In this document: positions 3 to 29,332 of the stretch, piece after piece
Layout: each line of letters opens with the position of its first letter
Position numbering within the stretch: position 1 is the first letter of the stretch
Assembly: GCA_022562795.1 (NCBI GenBank)
Contig: JADFOP010000013.1
Location: 1-47,637, forward strand
Reading direction: 5' to 3'
Origin: Nitrospinota bacterium
GTDB taxonomy: Bacteria > JADFOP01
DNA: 47,637 nt
Made by a program: the position numbers and the translations under genes
Notes under the pieces: model-generated
Seen by the model: only the letters and a program-made list of their open reading frames with translations
Told to the model about the DNA's origin: nothing
Database searches by the model: none

Positions 3-962
3 GCTCAAGGCCGTTCCTTCCGCCCCGATCAGGCGGCGAAACTCAATCGGCTCGTTGCCGGCGGCCGTTTGAAGTTTGACGCGGCCGCGCAGCCGCAGAG
101 TCGTCGGCAGCTTGTCGGCATCGACGAGAAAGTTCGACCGCAACGACAACCGGCGGCCTCCCTCGCCGAGCGGCTGGCCTGGCTAAAGGACGCGGGGCTA
201 CCTGGCGAGGCGGTATCGGCCGACGAGCTCCGGAAGCTCGAGCCTGCTCTATCCCCCCATATTCTCGGCGGCCTGCTCCTACCCGAGGACTGGCACGTAA
301 ACAACCGAAAGATGACCCAGGCTTACGCCCAGGCGGCCGAGGGGTGCGGAGCAATAATCCATCCCGATCGGCCGGCGACCGAATTGCTCGTCGACGGCGG
401 GCGGGTCATCGGGGTCGCGACACCTTCGGGCCCCGTCCACGCCGGGGTGACGATCAACTGCGCGGGCCCCTGGGCGAGCGAACTCGCGGCGACGGCGGGG
501 CTCACCCTCCCGATGGAGCCCGTCAAGGGCCAGCTATTGGGCCTGGAGGTCTCGCCTCCACCTGTCCGGCACGTCATCTACTCCAGCCAGGCCTACGTGG
601 TGCCCCGCCTCGGAGGAGAGGTGATACTTGGGACCACCGAGGAGTGGGTCGGCTTCAACATCGAGCCCACACCCGCCGGCATGGCCGCAATCTTGAGCGG
701 CGCCGTCGGGGTCTGCCCGGCTTTGGGCGAGGCCCCCTTCCGGCGGGCCTGGGCGGGGCTTCGGCCGTGTCCGCCCGACCTGCTGCCCTACCTGGGATGG
801 GACCCTAGAGTGGAAGGCCTCGCCGTGGCGACGGGCCACCATCGTAACGGCATCCTGCTGGCCCCGATAACCGCCCGGGCGTTGAAGGAGCTCCTCTTCG
901 ATGAGACCCCGTCGGTGGATCTGGCGCCTTTCCAGGTCGACCGGCATCCCTCGGCCGCCTAA
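3..962 (+). CDS. thiO: Glycine oxidase ThiO-like FAD-dependent oxidoreductase, 5' end missing
   Basis: From about residue 55 this matches the C-terminal two thirds of the DAO/ThiO family, flavoenzymes that oxidise glycine to the imine used for the thiamin thiazole. Seen: a substrate-domain stretch ending in LEPALSP, a 'NCAGPWA' flavin-proximal segment, a beta strand near VVPRLGGEVILGTTEE, and the C-terminal ATGHHRNGILLAP motif typical of ThiO. The N-terminal FAD-binding GxGxxG is not in the window. The frame is open to the left edge, but the first 50 or so residues are Arg/Gln-rich and do not resemble the family (see findings), so the true ThiO homology may begin only near base 165. No thiamin genes follow. 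Sarcosine or another amine oxidase of the same fold is possible. Confidence 0.75.
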   Translation, partial: AQGRSFRPDQAAKLNRLVAGGRLKFDAAAQPQSRRQLVGIDEKVRPQRQPAASLAERLAWLKDAGLPGEAVSADELRKLEPALSPHILGGLLLPEDWHVNNRKMTQAYAQAAEGCGAIIHPDRPATELLVDGGRVIGVATPSGPVHAGVTINCAGPWASELAATAGLTLPMEPVKGQLLGLEVSPPPVRHVIYSSQAYVVPRLGGEVILGTTEEWVGFNIEPTPAGMAAILSGAVGVCPALGEAPFRRAWAGLRPCPPDLLPYLGWDPRVEGLAVATGHHRNGILLAPITARALKELLFDETPSVDLAPFQVDRHPSAA

Positions 963-1118
963 CACCCTTCAGTCGCGGGAATATTTCACCTTCGAGGGGT
1001 CAAATAGTTAGGGAAAAAAGTATTGTAGGTTCGGAAAAATAATCTTACAAAGCTAAATTACTACTTTTTCCACGTTTTTTCTCTTCCGAAGGGAACATAA
1101 AATTTCTTCAATAAATTT

Positions 1119-1148
1119 TTGCAAAAAACGTGTCGAATGTGATATTAA
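1119..1148 (+). promoter_or_regulatory. Possible sigma70 promoter for the AT-hook protein gene
   Basis: TTGCAA (1119-1124), 18 bp, TATTAA (1143-1148), in a strongly AT-rich block (about 1010-1195) that contrasts with the GC-rich genes around it. A start near 1155 would leave a leader of about 48 nt before the strong AGGAGG ribosome site. Nothing else is apparent in 963-1202. Confidence 0.4.
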
Positions 1149-1202
1149 ATAGGCAATGGCAATTTTTCCCGAATTTTTTTGGCGAATATAGGAGGAAAAA
1201 CA

Positions 1203-2289: not shown

Positions 2290-2550
2290 CTAGCCCGTCC
2301 CCAGCATCTCATCTAGCTTGCCTGCGTCGTTCAGGGCCTTGAGGTCGTCATATCCGCCAACGTGGTGGCCGTCGATAAAGATCTGCGGCACAGTCTGGCG
2401 ACCCGTCTCCTCAACCATCGCCTGGCGGCGGTCGGGCTCGGCCACTATGTCGATCTTCTCATCTATGTCGAAGCCCTTCTTGGCGAGCAACTGCTCGGCC
2501 CGCATGCAGTAGGGTCAATGGTCTTTATGGTACATAACGATATGGGGCAT
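2290..2550 (-). CDS. grxC: Glutaredoxin, probable selenoprotein (UPYC active site, in-frame TGA)
   Basis: Read from ATG at 2550, the frame gives MPHIVMYHKDH, then TGA (2515-2517), then PYCMRAEQLL and the rest of a complete Grx3-type glutaredoxin with the TVPQIFIDG (cis-Pro) and GGYDDL glutathione-binding motifs. TGA sits exactly where the first Cys of the CPYC redox site belongs, giving U12-P-Y-C15 in 86 residues. An AAAGGAG ribosome site (2560-2566) 9 nt before the ATG supports this upstream start, which lies 45 nt 5' of the first ATG after the TGA. A bSECIS-like hairpin follows the TGA (2482-2500). Selenocysteine glutaredoxins with UxxC sites are known in some bacteria. The alternative is a Cys-to-stop mutation, which would leave a protein with no active site. 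Confidence 0.85.
2482..2500 (-). promoter_or_regulatory. Bacterial SECIS-like hairpin in the glutaredoxin reading frame
   Basis: Starting 14 nt after the in-frame TGA on the minus strand: GG, bulged C, CGAGC, loop AGUU, GCUCG, CC. That is a 5-bp GC-rich stem extended by two G-C pairs beyond a one-base bulge. The apical loop carries G-U at positions 24-25 after the UGA. These features (single bulge below the upper stem, small loop with GU, 16-37 nt from UGA) are those expected for SelB-binding bSECIS elements. Confidence 0.7.
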
Positions 2551-7774: not shown

Positions 7775-10570
7775 TCATTCGGCACGTAGGCGGTCCACAC
7801 AGCGGCCGCAGAGGGTAGGATGGTCCGTTGAGGAGCCCACATCCTCTTTGAATACCCAGCAGCGCTCGCACTTCTTGCCGGGCGCCCGCTCCCAGGCCAC
7901 GGCGAGCCCGGCTATCTCGTCGCTTCGCATCGCAGCATCCGGGACGGAATCGGGAGCGGCCAGATCGACGGCCGAGACGATAAAGATCTCCGGCAACTGG
8001 TCCCGGTGCGCCTCCAAGAGTTTCTTAAGAGTGCCGTCGGCTCCAATGATAACCTTCGCTTCTAGGGAGCTTCCAATGGCTTTGTCGCTCCGTGCCCCTT
8101 CCAGGCACTTGGTGACCTCGCTGCGGACGGCGAGCAGTGTATCCCACGTGGCTGCCAACGTCTCGTCCTGGTAGGCTGGCTCGACCTCCGGCAAGGCAGC
8201 CAGGTGGACGCTTTCGGCCGTCTGGAGAGCCGGGGCCATATGCTCCCAGACCTCCTCGGCCGTGTAGGCGAGCACAGGGGCCATGAGACGGACCATCGTC
8301 GAGAGGACCTCGCTCAAGACCGTCTGGGCCGCGCGCCGGGCCGGCGAAGCCGCCTCGTCGCAGTAGAGCCGGTCCTTCAAAACGTCGAGGTAGAAGGAGG
8401 AGAGGTCTAGCACACACCAATTGTGAAATGCATGGTAAAAGAGGTGGTACTCGTTACGGGCGTAAGCCCTGCCGACGCGCTCCACGAGGAGCTGAAGCCG
8501 GTGGAGGACGTAGCGCTCCATGGCGGGCAGCTCTGTGTACGGAACCTCATCGCGGGCCGCCTCGAAGTCATAGAGGTTCGCCAAGAGGAACCGGCACGTA
8601 TTGCGGATGCGGCGATATGCCTCGGTCAATCGAGTGAGAATCTCCTCGGAGATGCGCACGTCGTCGCGGTAGTTCTCCGAGGCCACCCAGAGGCGGAGAA
8701 TCTCTGCCCCGTAGCGCTCGATGATCTCCTGGGGGGCGATGACGTTTCCCGCGCTCTTCGACATCTTTTTGCCCTCGCCGTCGACCACGTAGCCGTGGGT
8801 GAGGACCGACCGATAGGGGGCCCCGCCGCGCGTGCCCACGGCTGCGAGCAGGGAGCTGTGGAACCACCCCCGGTGCTGGTCGCTTCCCTCCAGGTACATA
8901 TCGGCCGGCCAGTCCAGGCGCCGCTCGCCGGTGAGGACCGCCGCGTGGCTCACCCCCGACTCGAACCATACATCGAGGATGTCCTCCTCCTTGCGAAAGT
9001 CCGCAGCTCCGCAGGCCGGGCAGGCGAGCCCCGAAGGGACGAGATCGGCCACGGGGCGCTCAAACCAGGCGTCGGCCCCCTCTTCGGCCACGAGGGCTGC
9101 TGCGTGCTCAGCCAGCTCCTTCGACAGGACCGTCTCGTCGCAGGCCTCGCAGTATAGCGCCGTGATAGGCACCCCCCAGGCTCGCTGACGGGAGATACAC
9201 CAGTCCGGTCGCCGCTCGACCATCTGGTATATGCGCTCCTCGCCCCAGGCGGGAATCCACGTCACTTGGCGGATCTCCTCCAGGGCCTTACGGCGAAGCT
9301 CCTCATGGTCCATGGAGATAAACCACTGGGCAGTAGCGCGAAAGATGATGGGCTCCTTGCACCGCCAGCAATGGGGGTAGGAGTGGGTGACTTCATCGGC
9401 CGCGATGAGGTGGCCGTCGGCCCTGAGGCGCTCAATGATGCCGTGGTTGGCCTCCCAGACATTGAGTCCCCCGAAGAGCTCCATCTCCGGGACGAAGCGG
9501 CCGTGGTCGTCCACCGGGTTGTAGACCTCGAGGCCGTAGCGTAGCCCGACCTCGTAGTCATCATGACCATGGCCCGGGGCTGTGTGGACGCACCCGGTCC
9601 CCTGCTCCAGGGTCACGTGTTCGCCGAGCAGGATCGGGCTTGGCCGCTGGTAGAAGGGATGGCGGCAGACGAGGCCTTCCAGGGCCGAACCCTTGACCGT
9701 GCCAAGTTCAGCCGGGGTAGCGCCTGCCACCCGTTTGAGGACCTCCGCCTTCAGCCCCTCGGCCATGACCCACACTTCTTCGTCGATCTCCACGGCCGTG
9801 TACTCCAGGTCGGGGTGGACGCAGATGGCCAGGTTGGCAGGGAGGGTCCAGGGCGTCGTCGTCCAGATGAGAACGAAGGCAGCTCTATCGGCCGCATCGG
9901 GAAACCACCGGCCGAGGTCGCCCTCGACGGGGAACTTGACGTAAATTGAGGGGGAAGTACGGTCGTCGTACTCCACCTCGGCCTCGGCCAGCGCCGTCAC
10001 ACAGCTAGTGCACCAGTGAACCGGCTTCAGCCCGCGGTAGACGCTCCCCCGTTCGACGAAGCGGCCGAACTCCCGAATGATAGTGGCCTCGTAGCCTGCA
10101 TCCATCGTTAGGTAGGGGGCGTCCCAATCGGCGAAGACCCCCAGGCGCTTGAACTCCTCACGCTGGATGGCGACGAACTTCTCGGCGAAGGCCCGGCACC
10201 GCTTGCGGACCTCGGTTTTGGAAAGCTCTTCGAGCCGTGGTCCTAGCTCCTGTTTTACCTGGTGCTCGATTGGCAGCCCGTGGCAGTCCCAACCGGGGAC
10301 GTAGACGGCGTCGAAGCCCTCCATCTGCTTAATCTTGACTATGATGTCCTTGAGAATCTTGTTGAGGGCGTGCCCGATGTGGATGTGCCCGTTGGCGTAC
10401 GGCGGCCCGTCGTGGAGGATGTAGGTGGGCCGATCGGCGGACGCCTCCCTGAGAACCCGGTAGATGTCCATGGCCTCCCAGCGGGCGAGAATCTCGTTTT
10501 CCCGCACGGGGAGGTTCGCCCGCATGGGAAAGGCGGTCTTGGGAAGGTTCAGGGTCTCTTTGTAGTCCAT
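7775..10570 (-). CDS. ileS: Isoleucine-tRNA ligase
   Basis: 931 residues, normal for bacterial IleRS. Class I signatures: [12 protein letters not shown] near residues 57-67 and KKMSKS near 600. The CP1 editing region lies between them, and a C-terminal zinc finger of four Cys (CERC and CGRC) follows near residues 905-925. It charges tRNA-Ile with isoleucine and hydrolyses Val-tRNA-Ile. It lies 37 nt downstream of trpS and overlaps the possible upstream starts of lspA. No T-box leader is present; the operon leader before the first gene is only about 35 nt. Confidence 0.97.
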
Positions 10571-25174: not shown

Positions 25175-25822
25175 GTGACAGAGCAGGGTTGCACCATCTG
25201 GTTTACAGGCCTATCGGGTTCTGGGAAAACGACTATCGCCGATTCTCTCAAAGACGCCCTACACAAGCGAGGGACGACAAAGGTAGAGATCCTCGACGGT
25301 GACGTTGTCAGGACCAATCTGAGCAAAGGGCTCGGTTTCTCTAAGGAAGACCGGGACACGAACATTCTTAGGATCGGCTTCGTCTGCGACCTGTTGTCGA
25401 GAAACGGGGTCGTCGCCATTGCGGCCGCCATATCACCATATCGCTCGACCCGCGACGCCGTCAGGGAGCGTATCGGAGAGGCATTCATAGAAGTCTTCGT
25501 AGACGCCCCCCTGGAGGTCTGTATGGAGCGGGATGTGAAGGGGCTCTACGAGCGAGCCCTGAAGGGAGAGATTCCCCAGTTCACGGGTGTTTCCGACCCA
25601 TACGAGGAGCCGCTGAGCCCTGAGGTGATTCTTAGGACCGACCGGGAGAAGGTTGAGCTAAGCGTGGCGAAGCTGCTAAGGGCCATGGAGCTTTTAGGTT
25701 TATTGCCGGAGGATGGCCGGATACTCAACGACGCTGAAGAAGAGGCGCTCCATCGTCAGCTTGCGGCGGCCGGCCGCTTGGCCAACCGTGCAAAGGCTGC
25801 ACAACGCGAGGTTGGGTCATGA
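25175..25822 (+). CDS. cysC: Adenylylsulfate (APS) kinase
   Basis: 215 residues from GTG 25175 with a GGGAGAGAG ribosome site. The P-loop GLSGSGKT lies at residues 12-19, then [22 protein letters not shown] (APS-binding loop) and ISPYRSTRD, the canonical APS kinase motifs. It phosphorylates APS to PAPS in the cytoplasm. The final 35 residues are an Ala/Arg-rich helix beyond the usual core. Its TGA overlaps the ATG of cysH (ATGA), so the two are translationally coupled. Confidence 0.95.
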
Positions 25823-26577
25823 ACCCTACCAGGGGCGGGATAAGCCTTCCTGGGGCACTTAGGCGGGGCGAGGATATATCGCCTGCAGAGGTGCTCGCCT
25901 GGACCCTTGAGCATTTCAGCTCACGCGTTATCATGACGACGGCCTTCGGGCTCAACGGAGTGGCCCTCATCCACATGACCAACGCTTTTGAGCCGAGCAT
26001 GCCCATACTATTTATCGACACCGGATTCCACTTCCCAGAGACCCTGGAGACGAAGCACCGCGTTGTTGAGCGCTACGGGCTCAACCTCATCGAGTACCGA
26101 GTTCCACCCCCCCCTGAAGTAGACGAGAACCCTTCCGCCCTAGTGCCTTCCCCCGAGACCCCCGAGCTGTGCTGCGCCGAGCGAAAGGTCGAGACCTTCC
26201 AGCGGGCTCTTGCGGAGCTTAAACCCGACGCCGTTATCAGCGCCAGAAGCCGGCACCAGTCGGAGACCCGAAGCGAGCTTGCCATCATCGAGCTGGAGAC
26301 TCACCCGGTGCGGGTCAACCCGCTAGCCCAATTGAGCCTGGAGGAGGTCGAACGCTACGTTCGGGAAAACGAAGTTCCATACAATCCTCTCTACGACCGA
26401 GGCTTCAAGAGTGTGGGCTGCTGGCCCTGCACGCGGCCCGTCGAGCCCGGCGAAGATGTCAGGGCCGGGAGGTGGAGCGGTCAGGACAAGCAGGAGTGCG
26501 GCATCTGGATCGTCGACGGAGACGTCGTCCGCCGGCCTCAGGATGAGCGTCCCTCCTCGGAGCCGAACTCGCCATAG
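25819..26577 (+). CDS. cysH: Iron-sulfur type APS/PAPS reductase
   Basis: 252 residues. Adenylyl-binding regions: [14 protein letters not shown] and [13 protein letters not shown]. The Cys pairs C118-C119 (ELCCAERK) and C201, C204 (GCWPCTR) are those that bind a [4Fe-4S] cluster in APS reductases; E. coli-type PAPS reductases lack them. The C-terminal catalytic Cys (C227 in ECGIW) is present, though the following His of the usual ECGLH is Trp here. It reduces APS (possibly PAPS) to sulfite with thioredoxin or glutaredoxin. ATGA overlap with cysC. Confidence 0.92.
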
Positions 26578-26592
26578 GAGCGGAGGAGTCCA

Positions 26593-28122
26593 ATGGACGA
26601 AATCCAACACGCCTACCCAATCTTTCTCGACCTGCGCGGCAAGGCGTGCCTGGTCGTTGGCGGCGGCCGGGTTGCCACACGGCGGGTCCGGCGTCTCATT
26701 GAAAGCGGGGCTCGCGTCACGGTGGTCAGCCCGAAGGCCACGAGGGAAATCAAGGGGCTCCATGCTCGCGGCGAGCTGACGTACGTGGCCAGGCCGTACC
26801 AGAGAGGTGACCTTGCTGGCCACGGCTTCGTCATCTTGGCCACCGATGATGACGCCGCCCATGAGCAGGTGCTCCACGACCGCCTCGGCGAAGGTAGAGC
26901 CATTCTGGTCAACGATGCCATTCGGCCCGAGCGGGGCGACTTCACTGTTCCGGCGCTCTACCGGGAGGGCTCCTTGTCGGTGGCCGTCGCTACGGGGGGT
27001 CTGATGCCGAGGTTGGCGGCGGCAGTGGCAACCGAGGTTGGCCGTCTCTTCGGACAAACAGCGGCCGCCATTCTGCGCCGCTACCGGACCTGGAAGGGGA
27101 GGGTGATGCTCCAGCGCGAAACGAGCCCCGATGCGGTGCGCGCCCTCAGGCGGGCCGTCGACCAGCGGCTCCTGGAGGCCTTCCGCTCTGGCGACCTCGT
27201 ACGAGTCGCGGACACCATCGAACGCGCCGAGAAGCTCTCATTCATTGAGCCGGGCCGGGCGAATCCAGGGGCCGATCCGTACACCCGGCCGACGCCGGGC
27301 CAGACGGGGACTGTCTACCTCGTTGGCGCAGGCCCTGGCGATCCGGGGCTCCTCACCCTCAAGGGCAGAGATGTCCTCCGGCGGGCGGGGGCGGTCGTCT
27401 ACGATCGCCTCATCGACGCCACGCTCCTCGAGCTCCCCCCTCCTTGGGCGTGCCTTCTCCCCGTTGGCAAAGTGCCTGGCCGACACGCAGTGAGCCAAGA
27501 TGCCATCAACGAGCTGCTTAAAGAGCAAGCGGGTAAACACGAGGTTGTGGTGCGGCTCAAGGGGGGAGACCCCTTCATATTTGGACGGGGGGGCGAAGAG
27601 GCCGACTTTCTGCAAAACGAGGGAATTGCCTTCGAGGTGGTCCCGGGAGTGTCGGCGGCTGCGGCAGCTCCGGCCTACGCCGGCATCCCTCTCACACACA
27701 GGGACTGCGCATCCTCTTTCGCCGTCGCGACGGCTCATCCGGCCTGCGCCGAGGAGACTATCCCCATCGCAGTTCCAGAAGCCGACACCCTCGTCTACCT
27801 CATGGGCCTGGCCAACCTCCCGGCCATAGTCAAGGCCCTGCTAAGCAAGGGTAGATCCCCCGACACCCCCGTGGCCGTCATCAGTATGGCGACTACCGCC
27901 CGACAACAGGTTGTCTCCGCTCCGCTTGAGGCTATCGCAGAGGAGGCTCGCCGGGCAGACCTTCTTCCGCCTGCTGTCATTGTTGTGGGGGAGGTCGTCC
28001 GTTTTTCCGACCGCCTACAGTGGTTTAGAGAAGGCGGCGCCCGGGAATTTCCCGTGGACGCTTCACCCCAAGCCGCCTCGCGTTCAACCCTGAAGCAGGC
28101 GAAGTCGGCCCTGGCCGGCTGA
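26593..28122 (+). CDS. cysG: Siroheme synthase, fused dehydrogenase/chelatase and uroporphyrinogen-III methyltransferase
   Basis: 509 residues. N-terminal precorrin-2 dehydrogenase/ferrochelatase (residues about 5-215) begins with an NAD site, VVGGGRVATRRV. The C-terminal uroporphyrinogen-III C-methyltransferase (about 235-480) has VGAGPGDPGLLTLKG and GDPFIFGRGGEE. Order and length match E. coli CysG. It makes siroheme for the assimilatory sulfite reductase, which is not in the window. A GAGGAG ribosome site precedes the ATG; 15 nt after cysH. A 20-residue polar tail follows the catalytic core. Confidence 0.95.
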   Translation: MDEIQHAYPIFLDLRGKACLVVGGGRVATRRVRRLIESGARVTVVSPKATREIKGLHARGELTYVARPYQRGDLAGHGFVILATDDDAAHEQVLHDRLGEGRAILVNDAIRPERGDFTVPALYREGSLSVAVATGGLMPRLAAAVATEVGRLFGQTAAAILRRYRTWKGRVMLQRETSPDAVRALRRAVDQRLLEAFRSGDLVRVADTIERAEKLSFIEPGRANPGADPYTRPTPGQTGTVYLVGAGPGDPGLLTLKGRDVLRRAGAVVYDRLIDATLLELPPPWACLLPVGKVPGRHAVSQDAINELLKEQAGKHEVVVRLKGGDPFIFGRGGEEADFLQNEGIAFEVVPGVSAAAAAPAYAGIPLTHRDCASSFAVATAHPACAEETIPIAVPEADTLVYLMGLANLPAIVKALLSKGRSPDTPVAVISMATTARQQVVSAPLEAIAEEARRADLLPPAVIVVGEVVRFSDRLQWFREGGAREFPVDASPQAASRSTLKQAKSALAG

Positions 28123-28150
28123 GCCACCGTCTACCGAAGGAGCAGCGTCG

Positions 28151-29332
28151 ATGCATGGACTCATCGCCCCCCACGGAGGAAAGCTGATCAACCTGGTTCT
28201 CGAGGCGGACGAAGGCGCCGCCGCCGAAGAGCGCGCCGCCGACCTGCCGCAGGTCGCCCTCAACGCCCGTGCCATCTCCGATCTTGAGCTAATCGCCACG
28301 GGGGCCTTCAGCCCCTTGGAGGGTTTCATGGGCCGCCAGGACTACCAGGGCGTAATAAAGGATATGCGGCTTTCCAACGGCCTGCCATGGAGCCTGCCAA
28401 TCACGCTGGCGGTCGACAAATACGAAGCAGAGGGGCTTCGGCCTGGCCAAGACGTCGCCCTGGTTAACCCCCACGGACGCCTGCTGGCCCTGCTCCACCT
28501 CGAGGAGGCCTACCCGTACGACAAGAAGGTTGAGGCCGGCCTCGTCTACCGGACGGAGGAGGCCGCCCACCCTGGAGTCCACTACCTCTACCAGCGGGGG
28601 GAGGTGCTGCTGGCTGGCAAGGTGAGCCTGGTGCGCCGCTCCTCTCTAAAGGGCTTCGAGCCTTACAATGCCGAGCCCCGAGAACTGCGCAGCCAGTTCA
28701 CCGAGCGCAACTGGCGCACGGTAGTCGCCTTCCAGACCCGAAACCCCATCCACCGCGCCCACGAATACATCCAAAAATGCGCCCTGGAGCTGATGGACGG
28801 GCTCCTCATCCACCCTCTGGTGGGCAGGACGAAGCTCGACGATGTGCCGAGCTTGGTCCGCCTCGAGTGCTACCGGGTGCTCCTTGAGAACTACTACCCC
28901 AAGGAGCGCGCCATCATGACCGCATTTCCGGGCGCCATGCGGTACGCTGGCCCGCGCGAGGCCATCTTCCACGCCCTCGTCCGCAAGAACTACGGCTGCA
29001 CCCACTTCATCGTCGGCCGCGACCACGCCGGGGTCGGCGACTATTACGGGACCTACGACGCCCAGCAGATCTTCAGCGAGTTCGGCCGGGATGAGCTCGC
29101 CATCACCCCACTCTTCTTCGAGCATACCTTTTACTGCTCCACTTGCGGGGCGATGGCCTCGCCGAAGACCTGCCCCCACGACGACGGGTCGCGGATTACG
29201 CTTAGCGGCACGCGGCTTCGGGAGATGTTGGCCGACGGCTCCTTGATCCCCGAGGAGATCACCCGCCCAGAGGTGGCCCGGGTGCTAAGGCAGTGGGCCG
29301 AGGAGCATAAGCATAAGAACCAATCCGCCTAA
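28151..29332 (+). CDS. sat: Sulfate adenylyltransferase (homooligomeric ATP sulfurylase)
   Basis: 393 residues, the Sat type also found in dissimilatory sulfur bacteria, not the CysDN type. Motifs: FQTRNPIHRAHE and GRDHAGVGDYY, both nucleotide-binding, and a late Cys cluster CSTCGAMASPKTC that may bind zinc. It forms APS from ATP and sulfate, supplying CysC and CysH encoded upstream. It is the last gene of the cluster. Its TAA lies at the centre of a hairpin repeat (29324-29338). Confidence 0.95.
   Translation: MHGLIAPHGGKLINLVLEADEGAAAEERAADLPQVALNARAISDLELIATGAFSPLEGFMGRQDYQGVIKDMRLSNGLPWSLPITLAVDKYEAEGLRPGQDVALVNPHGRLLALLHLEEAYPYDKKVEAGLVYRTEEAAHPGVHYLYQRGEVLLAGKVSLVRRSSLKGFEPYNAEPRELRSQFTERNWRTVVAFQTRNPIHRAHEYIQKCALELMDGLLIHPLVGRTKLDDVPSLVRLECYRVLLENYYPKERAIMTAFPGAMRYAGPREAIFHALVRKNYGCTHFIVGRDHAGVGDYYGTYDAQQIFSEFGRDELAITPLFFEHTFYCSTCGAMASPKTCPHDDGSRITLSGTRLREMLADGSLIPEEITRPEVARVLRQWAEEHKHKNQSA

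Follow-up and report, generated by a model that had tools for sequence, protein, structure and literature searches.

A Grx3-type glutaredoxin gene with an in-frame TGA at the catalytic position, most likely read as selenocysteine, in a Nitrospinota bacterium

Main finding

The gene at positions 2290 to 2550 on the minus strand of the window (the whole stretch of DNA analysed here, 47,637 nucleotides of contig JADFOP010000013.1 from a Nitrospinota bacterium) very probably encodes a Grx3-type glutaredoxin that uses selenocysteine (Sec) as its catalytic residue. We consider Sec to be the most likely reading of its UGA codon, because an intact Grx3 sequence lies on both sides of the TGA, all alignable homologues carry Cys at the corresponding column, tRNA-Sec and a Sec-type selD are found in the same genome, selA and selB are present in both relatives tested, and two other genomes have a TGA at this column. 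A glutaredoxin read in this way would probably be functional, as judged from its sequence. The evidence base for the TGA itself is a single gene copy in a single assembly.

The glutaredoxin gene and its in-frame TGA

When the minus strand is translated from 2550 to 2290, the 86 codons give MPHIVMYHKDH-TGA-PYCMRAEQLLAKKGF, followed by a Grx3-like end. The forward-strand TCA at 2515-2517 is the TGA of the minus strand; it is codon 12 and the sole TGA found in the frame that starts from the ATG at 2550, and with the TGA taken as U the N-terminal part reads MPHIVMYHKDH-U-PYC. The xPYC motif with the TGA in its first place corresponds to the CPYC-type active site of Glutaredoxin 3 (TIGR02181), and this model matches residues 4-83, with the TGA read through, at 102.1 bits, above its cut-off of 90. 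The top relatives among solved structures are likewise glutaredoxins, including 2khp, 2mzc, 1fov and 4tr0, and we assign the gene to the Grx3/GrxC type with a UPYC active site. Nine nucleotides 5' of the ATG, at 2560-2566 on the minus strand, AAAGGAG is a likely ribosome-binding site. The standard list of open reading frames contains just a frame of 71 aa at 2290-2505, from which the active site is missing. These results bear out three claims that the sequence-only reading had made before any search: a TGA replacing the first Cys of CPYC in a Grx3-type glutaredoxin, an ATG with a ribosome site upstream of it, and a truncated frame from 2505 in which the active site is lost.

The homologue set was composed of loci from two genome searches (60 and 386 genomes) and of named matches from a search seeded with peptides; of the 131 loci given, 117 yielded an alignment spanning residue 12 at E up to 1e-8 and 14 did not. 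Residue 12 is Cys in 117 of the 117 alignable homologues, and the aligned part is free of stops in all of them. On average, the first 80 of the 117 alignments show 54% identity to the window protein on the 3' side of the TGA and 35% on the 5' side, and GC3 on the 3' side is 0.83, matching the 0.79-0.83 of four neighbouring genes; together these values indicate, at the level of sequence comparison, that protein-level constraint runs on past the TGA.

The search of 386 genomes at E up to 1e-10 gave 54 glutaredoxin matches in 47 genomes, and the two that bear a stop, the window gene and one from genome G152, both have TGA. The G152 protein, which is 33% identical to the window's, reads VVVYTASL-TGA-PYC with the TGA in the same column. 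At E up to 1e-3, the search of 60 genomes added two more stop-bearing matches: a weaker one from G033, reading PT-TGA-SSC with the TGA at the catalytic column as in the window gene, and one from G014, whose TAA is an ordinary stop close to the end of the protein and which we therefore did not accept as a Sec case. The TGA matches of G152 and G033 were fetched separately and stand outside the set of 117. Pairs of UGA and Cys at this position, for which the sequence-only reading had recommended aligning homologues, are thus present. The two loci deserve mention in their own right. The one in G152 (L192, contig C4, 1272-1514, plus strand) is a second candidate for a UPYC Sec-glutaredoxin and has an in-frame GTG upstream, with no ATG before the nearest stop, and the glutaredoxin-like locus in G033 (L193, contig C64, about 850-1170, minus strand), with PT-U-SSC, is a further selenoprotein candidate.

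In the window's own genome, a second and distant glutaredoxin-like match (C1:18647) has no inner stop. No glutaredoxin match was found at E up to 1e-10 in the relative of the same genus (G001; 386-genome search), nor in either the 60- or the 386-genome search in the relative of the same class (G002). We also tried to trace the origin of the window gene by a tree of 115 glutaredoxins, in which the window protein joins two long branches; with few columns and many forks left open, this tree supports no statement on transfer. Gallionella, which supplied the best named matches (60% identity), was not taken as the origin either, since that search was seeded with the window's own peptides.

A candidate bSECIS hairpin

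Downstream of the TGA, at 2482-2500 on the minus strand, lies a candidate bSECIS hairpin of 7 bp with one bulged C, GGC-c-GAGC (AGUU) GCUC-GCC, whose loop AGUU has G in second place followed by U. The spacing from the UGA to the loop is 22 nt and the energy is -10.5 kcal/mol; when a longer stretch is folded, the lowest-energy fold differs (-15.0) and has a 9-nt loop. According to the legend of Fig. 2 in PMC13188914, the bSECIS model has a loop of 3-9 nt with G within its first two positions, an upper stem of 4-16 bp, a distance of 16-37 nt from the UGA and an energy of at most -7.5 kcal/mol. The window hairpin (AGUU, 22, -10.5) agrees with the model as that legend gives it, a model that discriminates weakly: 82 of the 117 Cys homologues have a hairpin under a loose version of it, so that this version barely separates Sec from Cys genes. 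We also applied a strict test (loop of 3-6 nt, G and then G/U in the first places, local energy), which the window hairpin passes together with 11 of the 117 Cys homologues, 97 of 2000 synonymous recodings and all three other Sec sites tried, namely selD of the window's genome, selD of G002 and the fdhA-like gene of G002. For selD of G002, the scan also returned an off-frame string lacking a hairpin, which we regarded as a chance match and left out of the count. For the G152 gene, the hairpin has a GGC loop and a spacing of 20; it gives no strict match, and the free fold is -6.9. With these pass rates, the hairpin was rejected as decisive evidence and mildly favours the Sec reading. The bulge, the GU in the loop and the suitable distance on which the sequence-only reading had relied are all there, and it is their discriminating power that falls short.

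Sec machinery in the window's genome and in its relatives

The genome to which the window belongs amounts to 2.15 Mb in 84 contigs and is rated 97.1% complete. It has a tRNA-Sec on contig C37 (77.6 bits, with the gathering score at 47; anticodon tca) and, on C27, a Sec-type selD with a TGA within GGG-U-ACK. This selD is split: it leaves C27 at the contig end, its last part is on C45, and comparison by eye with the G002 selD puts the gap between the pieces at about 14 residues. On C45 the last part (L050, minus strand, 2505-1390) continues in frame into a PAS-domain fragment, and this fusion is likely, as its sequence suggests, to represent a chimeric contig end. In G001, too, the selD fragment stops at a contig end (C770).

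In this assembly, neither a selA match nor a selB match over the cut-off was found; the selB model picked up eight proteins, namely EF-Tu (2), IF-2, LepA, EF-G (3) and Der, and the SelB C-terminal domain gave no match in the genome. The working SelA/SelB/SelC/SelD system anticipated from the sequence is thus supported for tRNA-Sec and selD, and selA and selB were not recovered. The combination that the sequence-only reading had named as counting against it, lack of both selB and tRNA-Sec in a complete genome, is seen here in half: tRNA-Sec is present, and selB was not found in 84 contigs of 97.1% completeness. None of the ten formate dehydrogenase matches in the window's genome has the inner stop of a Sec-type enzyme. 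In G002, a formate-dehydrogenase-type protein (L184, contig C43, about 1930) has an in-frame TGA and a strong hairpin, and it is likely a Sec-type formate dehydrogenase in the same class.

Both relatives, G001 and G002, have selA and selB adjacent to each other, and selA is adjoined by scpA, scpB and a pseudouridine-synthase gene on the opposite strand (gene names by Pfam for G001 and by likeness for G002). The scpA block of the window's genome is on contig C34, where likeness to G001 breaks off upstream of scpA, 47 bases from the listed frame; the 1.8 kb from there to the contig end consists of different sequence, and scpA lies 1852 bases from this end. An alcohol-dehydrogenase-like gene (Pfam), which in G001 lies beyond selB, is found in the window's genome on C78, 957 bases from the contig end. 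Both flanks face the missing selA-selB segment, and a rough count puts the chance of such positions at about 7% and 4%, respectively. In the window's genome, the flanks known from G001 run into contig breaks that face the missing segment; we therefore regard an assembly gap as likelier than loss, and we infer that selA and selB of this genome sit in the unassembled gap.

Under the Sec reading, we propose that SelA and SelB would be encoded in this gap, and that SelB carrying Sec-tRNA-Sec would read the glutaredoxin UGA with help of the hairpin. The selenol of U12 would then attack either a disulfide or a mixed disulfide with glutathione; Cys15, the resolving residue, would close a selenenylsulfide, which would be reduced again by glutathione or another thiol.

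Other explanations of the TGA

An ordinary Cys glutaredoxin in which TGC became TGA, by a sequencing or assembly error or by a fresh nonsense mutation, is an unlikely source of the pattern. In its favour, a single base separates TGA from TGC, at least one join in the assembly looks suspicious, selA and selB were not found there, and the absence of the gene from both relatives leaves no close copy that confirms the TGA. Against this, the Cys version of the gene has 26 single-base changes that lead to a stop, just one of which is the TGA at codon 12, so that a nonsense mutation or base error arising at random would strike this codon about once in 26; when TGA stops alone are counted, the fraction is one in three. 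The remainder of the gene is intact, tRNA-Sec and Sec-type selD are encoded in the same genome, the hairpin appears in few of the synonymous recodings, and G152 and G033 have their TGA at the same column. An actual loss of selA and selB would turn the gene into a former selenoprotein gene, with translation stopping at codon 11 or with the UGA decoded otherwise. This is quite improbable, even with neither gene found in a nearly complete assembly and with the neighbourhood that joins scpA and selA in G001 and G002 replaced there: the genes that border the segment in G001 lie near contig ends to a degree that chance would seldom give, and there is no decay in tRNA-Sec or in the glutaredoxin frame. 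We think it very improbable that SelA and SelB were truly lost while tRNA-Sec, Sec-type selD and the Sec-glutaredoxin were kept, with the UGA decoded in some other way, for instance by replacement factors that are unknown or very diverged.

A code in which UGA is a sense codon genome-wide is hardly credible. The lone in-frame TGA is compatible with any sense reading, but eight of 27 hand-picked open reading frames of the window end in TGA, including a class I tRNA synthetase at 7775-10570, and the window encodes a release factor (PCRF and RF-1 domains; 18095 to about 19199, minus strand) whose frameshift site, CTTTGA at 19133-19128, is of the RF2 type and identifies it as RF2; UGA acts as an ordinary stop in this genome. 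For the release-factor gene the list of open reading frames gives a 366-aa piece from TTG instead. The Sec reading of the glutaredoxin UGA is the one that we retain.

Gene neighbourhood and significance

As context, the glutaredoxin gene is followed downstream, on its own strand, by a gene at 1805-2260 that encodes a protein of 151 aa with no match in NCBIfam or Pfam. Its relative in G001 (72% identity) adjoins a SelR-domain (MsrB-type) gene and not a glutaredoxin gene; the glutaredoxin gene was either gained in the window's lineage or lost in G001. Elsewhere in the window, sulfate-assimilation genes (Pfam: PAPS/APS reductase domain, siroheme-type methylase and ATP sulfurylase) are found on the plus strand at 25819-29332. 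Reductases of the PAPS/APS type can draw on glutaredoxin or thioredoxin.

The Sec reading corrects the annotation of a redox enzyme whose active site would otherwise be lost, and it adds a Sec-glutaredoxin together with the Sec-decoding trait to a sparsely sampled lineage: among the 60 genomes searched, its own included, the class is represented by the window's genome and by two others only (G001 and G002). No concept is changed by this, because Sec-glutaredoxins have already been described.

Comparison with known selenium glutaredoxins

Among solved structures, the window protein matches PDB chain 1fov, a glutaredoxin 3, at 77.2 bits and PDB chain 4tr0, named 'Glutaredoxin 3', at 65.7 bits. 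1fov is glutaredoxin 3 of Escherichia coli, a member of the same family that in this species has Cys in place of Sec, and 4tr0 presumably comes from Clostridium oremlandii. The UXX-star (seleno)proteins (NF041212 and relatives) are also glutaredoxin-like and are named for a U at the catalytic site, as in the window protein, which we do not place among them at 37.7 bits against a cut-off of 66 for NF041212.

Glutaredoxins with a UxxC motif are, by the parts of the literature drawn on here, an already described selenoprotein family (PMC1088965, PMC1794560, PMC13188914, PMC7642778). The accounts consulted give ten Sargasso Sea sequences of the selenoprotein glutaredoxin (Grx, UXXC; COG0695 / PF00462) (PMC1088965) and Sec-Grx in Geobacter sulfurreducens, Moorella thermoacetica and Alkaliphilus metalliredigenes (PMC1794560); the listing in PMC13188914 puts Grx before the group 'Predicted with high confidence', and the same article describes Sec in Grx as increasing catalytic efficiency. 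By these descriptions, the published proteins have Sec in place of the first Cys in the Grx motif, as the window protein would under the Sec reading; the host is another one, and the window gene is of Grx3 type by TIGR02181. cGrx1 of C. oremlandii is described as a native selenoprotein with U(or C)PXC that uses GSH as reductant, and it was proposed there as the reductant of a selenoprotein MsrA (PMC7642778). By that description, the window protein, read with Sec, would share with cGrx1 Sec in the first position of the motif and a resolving Cys three residues later.
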